Assembly: GCA_013288345.1 (NCBI GenBank)
Contig: JABDCA010000011.1
Location: forward strand, 1-64,000
Origin: Bacteroidota bacterium
GTDB taxonomy: Bacteria; Bacteroidota; Bacteroidia; JABEUT01
Direction: 5' to 3'
DNA length: 64,000 bases
Of the stretch, positions 1 through 22,988 are shown piece after piece. A program made the translations under genes and the position numbers. The notes under the pieces are model-generated. The model saw nothing but the letters and a program-made list of their open reading frames with translations, was not told the DNA's origin and did not search any database. Numbering within the stretch: the first letter of the stretch is position 1; the number at the start of each line of letters is the position of its first letter.

Positions 1-178
1 GTCGGAATTAAATATGATTCAATTGCTCCATGAAATCTGCGTATATTTTCTCTGCGTACTCTGCGGTGGAAGTATTTCAATACAGAAAAAAAGTTCAGTA
101 CCGCCAAAAACCGCCAGTTTACTCATGGCATATTTAATATTTATGGAATTCGTGAGTGCTTCGCAATTCCGCCATATA

Positions 179-270
179 GGGGGTATCAAAATGACAAAAA
201 TATTTATGAGTATTTGTTTTGAAAATCAAGCATTTAATGGTGTAACAGGGGGTATCAAGTGGGTACCCCC
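179..270 (-). repeat. ~90-bp dispersed element with GGGGGTA/TACCCCC ends, copy A
   Basis: Reverse complement aligns with 22647-22736; contains AGGGGGTATCAA twice (178-189, 247-258). Confidence 0.65.
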
Positions 271-374
271 TAATTTTATTATGTTAATCAGGAGAATAGC
301 GCACGAAATTGCGGAGTGTGTGCCAAAGTGTGCCATTTCCTTTGCGGGCTTTGCGCGAAAGCAATTGGAATTCA

Positions 375-22598: not shown

Positions 22599-22646
22599 TT
22601 TTTACCACTCCCATAGGGATGCCTCTGACATAATTCTTAATTAAAG

Positions 22647-22736
22647 GGGGGTAGCAACTGATACCTCCCTATTACACCTTAACTCAATGATTTTCAGCTA
22701 AAACGGTTGAAATATTTTTTACACTTTGTTACCCCC
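22647..22736 (+). repeat. ~90-bp dispersed element with GGGGGTA/TACCCCC ends, copy B
   Basis: Aligns with reverse complement of 179-270, sharing GATACC(T)CCCT, TTACACC, TGATTTTCA, AATATTTTT and TTTG(A/T)TACCCCC blocks in the same order. Confidence 0.65.
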
Positions 22737-22744
22737 CCCCTCCA

Positions 22745-22774
22745 TGTCGTTTCGTGTCGTTCTGTGTCGTACTG
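22745..22774. repeat. Three tandem 10-bp units TGTCGTnnnG
   Basis: tgtcgtttcg tgtcgttctg tgtcgtactg immediately after a C9 run. Confidence 0.7.
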
Positions 22775-22988
22775 CAACATTTTTTTGCTTGTCAAACCAA
22801 TTAAATAGCAATTGTATATCAAAGAACATTCTATCCCTCTCCTAGAGTCTGAATAGGAGCAGGGGTAATATCATGGCAATACAAATTTAAACTATAAATT
22901 AACTATATGTAATAAAATGGTTTATTTGTTTTCAACAACCCGATCGGTGGATATTAATAACCTGAAAACGCAGTATGGATTAAAGGCA

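Follow-up and report, generated by a model that had tools for sequence, protein, structure and literature searches.

Intergenic 94-bp repeats of a Bacteroidota genome share their ends with rarer units that encode a terminase-small-subunit-like protein

Two related intergenic sequences, copies A and B, lie in the stretch of DNA analyzed here (the window, positions 1 to 64,000 of one contig). On balance, they are probably gene-less members of a dispersed family whose gene-bearing members encode a terminase-small-subunit (TerS)-like helix-turn-helix (HTH) protein, which would act on them in trans. The window belongs to contig C11 of genome G000 (2.99 Mb, 90 contigs). The initial annotation had aligned the reverse complement of positions 179 to 270 with positions 22647 to 22736, and this match was recovered with 75.5% identity over 94 columns (blastn, E of ~1e-8 in the 64-kb window), while the next best match to copy A in the same search had an E-value of 0.037. 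The 12-bp direct repeat AGGGGGTATCAA of copy A was likewise confirmed, at positions 178 to 189 and 247 to 258. The length of ~90 bp given for the element was corrected to ~94 bp, and this sequence is one end of a longer unit rather than a complete element (Table 1). When copy A was used as the query, 16 places in its own genome were found at E ≤ 5e-4, and a covariance model built from 19 copies found 35 copies at E < 0.01. These copies were intergenic and their alignment was nearly gap-free. The initial annotation had considered that only two copies might exist, alike by chance as AT-rich DNA is; because of the 16 genome places and the 35 model copies, the match in the window is not such a chance.

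Each copy showed the same layout, namely a left arm (L), an internal arm (I), a central dyad TTGRTTWTCAA, and a right arm (R), with L inverted relative to I and R, which are direct. Two main classes were found, one of GGGGGTATC or GGGGGTGGAC types and the other of AACACGG[TTGAC/GTTAC/TTTAC]ACTTTTG types, and both window copies belong to the first class. Arm sequences varied between copies and between genomes, and several arm classes coexisted in one genome, but the left and right ends mostly matched inside a single copy. The L-R duplex of a copy's own arms had an energy of −17.9 kcal/mol versus −14.5 kcal/mol for swapped arms (0 of 20,000 permutations), and for 94 copies from six genomes the values were −15.8 and −10.0 (0 of 5,000 permutations); in both tests the swaps ignore relatedness. 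In a 14-copy subfamily in the GTATC register, own L-R pairing showed no excess over swapped arms. Matches of L with I and of I with R within a copy were present in G000 and absent in G004 and G009. The matching of arms within copies is compatible both with ends that pair and with a single protein that binds at several places.

The unit consists of the 94-bp repeat as its conserved end, a three-box array, and an AT-rich motif ending in TTTTCAACAACCC. Most copies had three TGGCGG or TGTCGT boxes with a 10-bp period downstream on the same strand, often followed by a T-run and, farther on, by the 43-bp AT-rich motif. We found 31 distinct box arrays in the own genome (32 pattern matches, compared with 1 in a reversed control). 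Twenty-five of them were directly downstream of a copy; among the other six, three were flanked by a copy on the opposite side and one was at a contig end. The right motif of the copy B unit agreed with the consensus at 40 of 43 positions (22 in a shuffled control), and that of copy A would fall beyond the contig start. The array of copy A is split by an insertion that is common to the copies at C15:32.6k and C2:147k, and thus whole units were duplicated. The GGCACAC...GTGCGC module left of copy A was also seen by eye next to several other copies.

Table 1. Positions in the window of the features of copies A and B
Feature	Position	Strand	Basis
Copy A, 94-bp repeat	177..272	-	Genome and covariance-model searches, sequence
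Copy A arms and central dyad	L 260-270; I 248-257; R 179-188; dyad 219-229	-	Sequence
Copy A TGGCGG boxes (+ strand CCGCCA)	101-106, 111-116, 169-174 (span 101..174)	-	Sequence
Insertion splitting the copy A boxes	117-168		Two other copies have the same insertion
Hairpin-like module GGCACAC...GTGCGC left of copy A	299..334	-	By eye; presumed part of the unit
Copy B, 94-bp repeat	22645..22738	+	Alignment and covariance-model search
Copy B arms and centre	L ~22646-22656; centre 22688-22696; R 22727-22736	+	
Three TGTCGT boxes, 10-bp period, behind copy B	22745..22770	+	
AT-rich right motif of the copy B unit, ending in TTTTCAACAACCC	22899..22941	+	Consensus match

Behind many copies, for example at loci L044, L047, L049, and L060, the dispersed repeats GTCATACTGAGCCTGTCGAAGTATCTC and TCCGCCATAGCTTTAGCGAAG separate the 94-bp repeat from the array, and the intergenic regions are therefore mosaics of several repeat families. 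In G007, a tandem repeat of ~86 bp (TTGGACAGTTTTGCACAGGTTC...AAAAAGTGTCC) of varying number stands left of each copy (L098 to L108). The tandem GGGTTNACAC pattern was found only in G007 and G009 among 395 genomes of the class; its one match in viral contigs, in a GC-rich phage contig, was judged to be chance, and the core pattern of the second repeat class had no match in viral contigs. The right motif was considered as a canonical Bacteroidetes promoter, but no such claim is made because the spacing does not fit. Copy B is unlikely to be the recR promoter, since a TATTTTTG box was seen by eye directly at the recR start.

A few long copies (0.6 to 0.9 kb) contained one gene, here called gene X, between the same ends as the short copies, and short and long members agreed in the arms of the 94-bp repeat and in the motif at the right end. 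The own genome has 35 repeats versus two gene X copies (C64 and C4), and gene X also stands beside a repeat in G001, G004, G005, and G007. The gene runs on the strand opposite to the copy and terminates within the 94-bp repeat or at its edge, and a right-motif-like GGGGTTGTTGAAAAC stretch lies 5' of it in the G000, G001, and G005 copies that were read. The gene-bearing members have no TGNCGN array, and therefore the short units are not simply deleted forms of them: the ends are common and the interior is different. At the C4 copy (L067, 1501-1567), the last codons of gene X cross the R arm and central dyad of the repeat, and the G004 orthologue of this gene has the same C-terminal residues, DNQHVDG. 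A second, more diverged paralogue of gene X occurs in G001, G007, G004, and G005 (L124 to L127), with an in-frame stop codon in three of the four.

We examined the distribution of the repeat and of gene X among 11 congeners. The repeat was present in G000, G001, G004, G005, G007, and G009 (5 to 26 copies in each of the five besides G000) and absent from the other five. Gene X was found in five of the six repeat-bearing genomes and in none of the rest (Fisher's test, P = 0.015); it was not found in G009, a genome 57% complete that has 10 copies. In distant Bacteroidota, homologues of gene X occurred in two settings. In the first, they came last among the genes of small elements that also had HTH_17 and AAA or BT4734-type genes. 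One such region (L132, 1-4620), with a tyrosine recombinase gene, an HTH_17 gene, and a gene X homologue 57 bp before a tRNA-Arg gene, resembles satellite-type integrative elements. In the second, the homologue was a lone gene next to an inverted repeat whose centre is similar; this repeat was behind the gene at L135 and L142 to L144 and in front of it at L134, where it was found by the repeat model (E of 3.4e-9).

The gene X protein has about 175 to 190 amino acids and a helix-turn-helix, and no catalytic motif was found in it. Its gene was intact, with dN/dS values of 0.12 to 0.25 at dS near saturation, and is under purifying selection. Terminase small subunit profiles of PHROG matched 11 of 16 homologues (best E of 2.6e-8), and PF13022 of Pfam matched 7 of 16 (9.7e-8). 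A structure model (pLDDT 65) contained the HTH, a helical hairpin, and a beta hairpin, and its nine best fold matches in the PDB were all chains of 2AO9, with E-values of 0.24 and above, which are not significant. The structure 2AO9 is given as a small terminase (PMC4737164). From these profiles and this model, the protein appears to resemble phage terminase small subunits, with a weak fold match to 2AO9.

This likeness leads to the main rival explanation, an origin from pac/cos sites. Gene X would then encode a small terminase that still works and recognizes the repeat as its pac/cos-like site, both deriving from a phage satellite as a relic or by domestication; the copies dispersed over the chromosome would be places where packaging starts, or what decay has left of them. 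The profile matches are in its favor, as are the distant homologues located at the end of small integrative elements that contain replication genes, and the pac site of SPP1 likewise has repeats next to its small terminase gene (PMC4737164). The consistent top fold hits on a small terminase also point this way, but at nonsignificant E-values. No relative of gene X was found in 50,697 phage records, plasmids, and viral contigs, a large terminase gene was not seen in the vicinity, and the different arm classes would require different specificities. We regard this explanation as unlikely.

Whether the copies move or stay in place bears on the next alternative, that they are stationary regulatory or chromosome-organizing sites, conserved for binding a protein and changing their arms with it by concerted evolution. 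The empty-site comparison suggested in the initial annotation found one such site: the recR-nifU gap is ~60 bp in G008, where it is empty, but at least 400 bp in both G000 and G009, where it contains a unit. G007 has 11 copies that are 96% alike and lie mostly at places other than the orthologous ones. About a dozen copies, on the other hand, are at orthologous places in G000 and G009 or G004, usually in the same orientation despite differing sequences. Under an assumed 2,600 genes, ~0.1 to 0.3 would be expected, and a dozen is more than free movement predicts. The orthologous copies were generally no more alike than random pairs, with the exception of the gene X-bearing pair L067/L191 (similarity 0.75, rank 1); they therefore indicate reinsertion or conversion at favored places, or concerted evolution with a trans factor. 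A relic family that converts in place is a further rival. In 58 of 84 loci, the L end was directed toward the start of a gene (P = 0.0006, with orthologous loci counted separately). This orientation fits stationary sites and does not favor a simple terminator role. The empty G008 site, the G007 copies, the units duplicated with a common insertion, and the several arm classes in one genome all argue against stationary sites, and we consider this explanation improbable, somewhat more so than the packaging origin.

The initial annotation had also named a small non-autonomous mobile element, a recombinase attachment site, and a structured RNA. Of the first, a small non-autonomous dispersed element with matching inverted ends is supported, by a related gene-bearing version, an empty recR-nifU site, and near-identical copies in G007; no clear target duplication was seen at recR-nifU or in G007, where the boundaries are blurred by neighboring repeats. 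The attachment site was not borne out, since the repeat model found no copy in the 1.5 to 2 kb around three of four integrase genes, and one copy lies ~2 kb away from the fourth, a XerC/D-like gene, without any particular arrangement. It is very improbable that the unit is transcribed with the 94 bases as a leader or small RNA structure: the ends pair and partly covary and several copies have stable predicted folds, but the consensus fold has five pairs with a covariation term near zero, the copies stand in both orientations relative to neighboring genes and duplicate as DNA units, and the reading is not favored because Rfam gave no match at either threshold and matching ends are equally expected for the binding sites of one protein.

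Action of the gene X protein in trans is the most likely explanation, supported by the 35 copies, the shared ends, the position of gene X beside the repeat, co-occurrence, L-R pairing, duplicated units, the filled and empty site, the near-identical G007 copies, dN/dS, and the TerS likeness. As an oligomer, the protein would recognize the three arm motifs, of which L is inverted while I and R are direct. It may keep the repeat population either by assisting the movement of copies or because some function depends on the sites. Against this explanation are the orthologous copies, the failure to find gene X in the incomplete genome G009, the swap test that failed in one subfamily, and the lack of a clear target duplication or a catalytic motif; also, this type of protein is not known for any transposition chemistry. 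More tentatively, the family could be a second, independently evolved REPIN/RAYT-like system, in which a TerS-like protein keeps and spreads gene-less inverted-repeat sites in chromosomes of Bacteroidota, with arms that co-evolve with the protein species by species. If so, arrangements of a repeat population with a low-copy protein would evolve repeatedly, here on an unrelated DNA-binding protein, and phage-type packaging proteins would be tied to chromosomal repeats. The orthologous copies with genome-specific arms would offer a direct comparative test of protein-site co-evolution.

Finally, we compared the family with known systems. Like MITEs, the copies are short, gene-less, and intergenic, with ends in common with gene-bearing relatives. 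Unlike MITEs, they have no recognized transposase family between the same ends, where a TerS-like HTH gene is found instead, and they show no clear target duplication and arms that vary between copies while mostly matching within one. The TerS-like gene beside repeated, binding-site-like motifs recalls small terminases with pac/cos sites and phage satellites (PICI, PICMI), and distant gene X homologues occur in small integrative elements as in those satellites. In contrast to PICI and PICMI, the solo unit has no integrase, replication, or capsid gene, gene-less copies are many, and gene X was absent from the phage and viral collections searched.

REPIN/RAYT is the known example in which a low-copy domesticated transposase has kept repeats in a genome for a long time. 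It combines a low-copy protein gene that has its own repeat with many extragenic, gene-less inverted repeats of ~100 bp (PMC3116915, PMC8049555). The present family is not a member, as it has neither a Y1 gene nor a tetranucleotide foot. The two Y1 (PF01797) transposase genes of the own genome had no repeat copy in flanks of about 1.5 to 2.3 kb, and Y1/RAYT was rejected as the mobilizer; no conserved GTAG/CGTC foot of REP palindromes was seen by eye in the aligned copies. One of these genes (L088, at G000:C3:42.9k) is RAYT-like, with its own palindromes CCACGACCTAAAGGTCGTGG seen around it by eye, and is a separate REP-type system in this genome. The present family differs further in its partner, a TerS-like HTH protein instead of a Y1 transposase, in arms that are not REP palindromes, and in its only ~35 copies. 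Nevertheless, it shares with REPIN/RAYT the many extragenic, gene-less inverted-repeat units of ~100 bp, with tandem pairs, and a protein gene that is present once or twice in a genome, has its own repeat copy, and is kept by selection. Altogether, the family resembles REPIN/RAYT because its gene-less copies share their ends with a rarer gene-bearing version.
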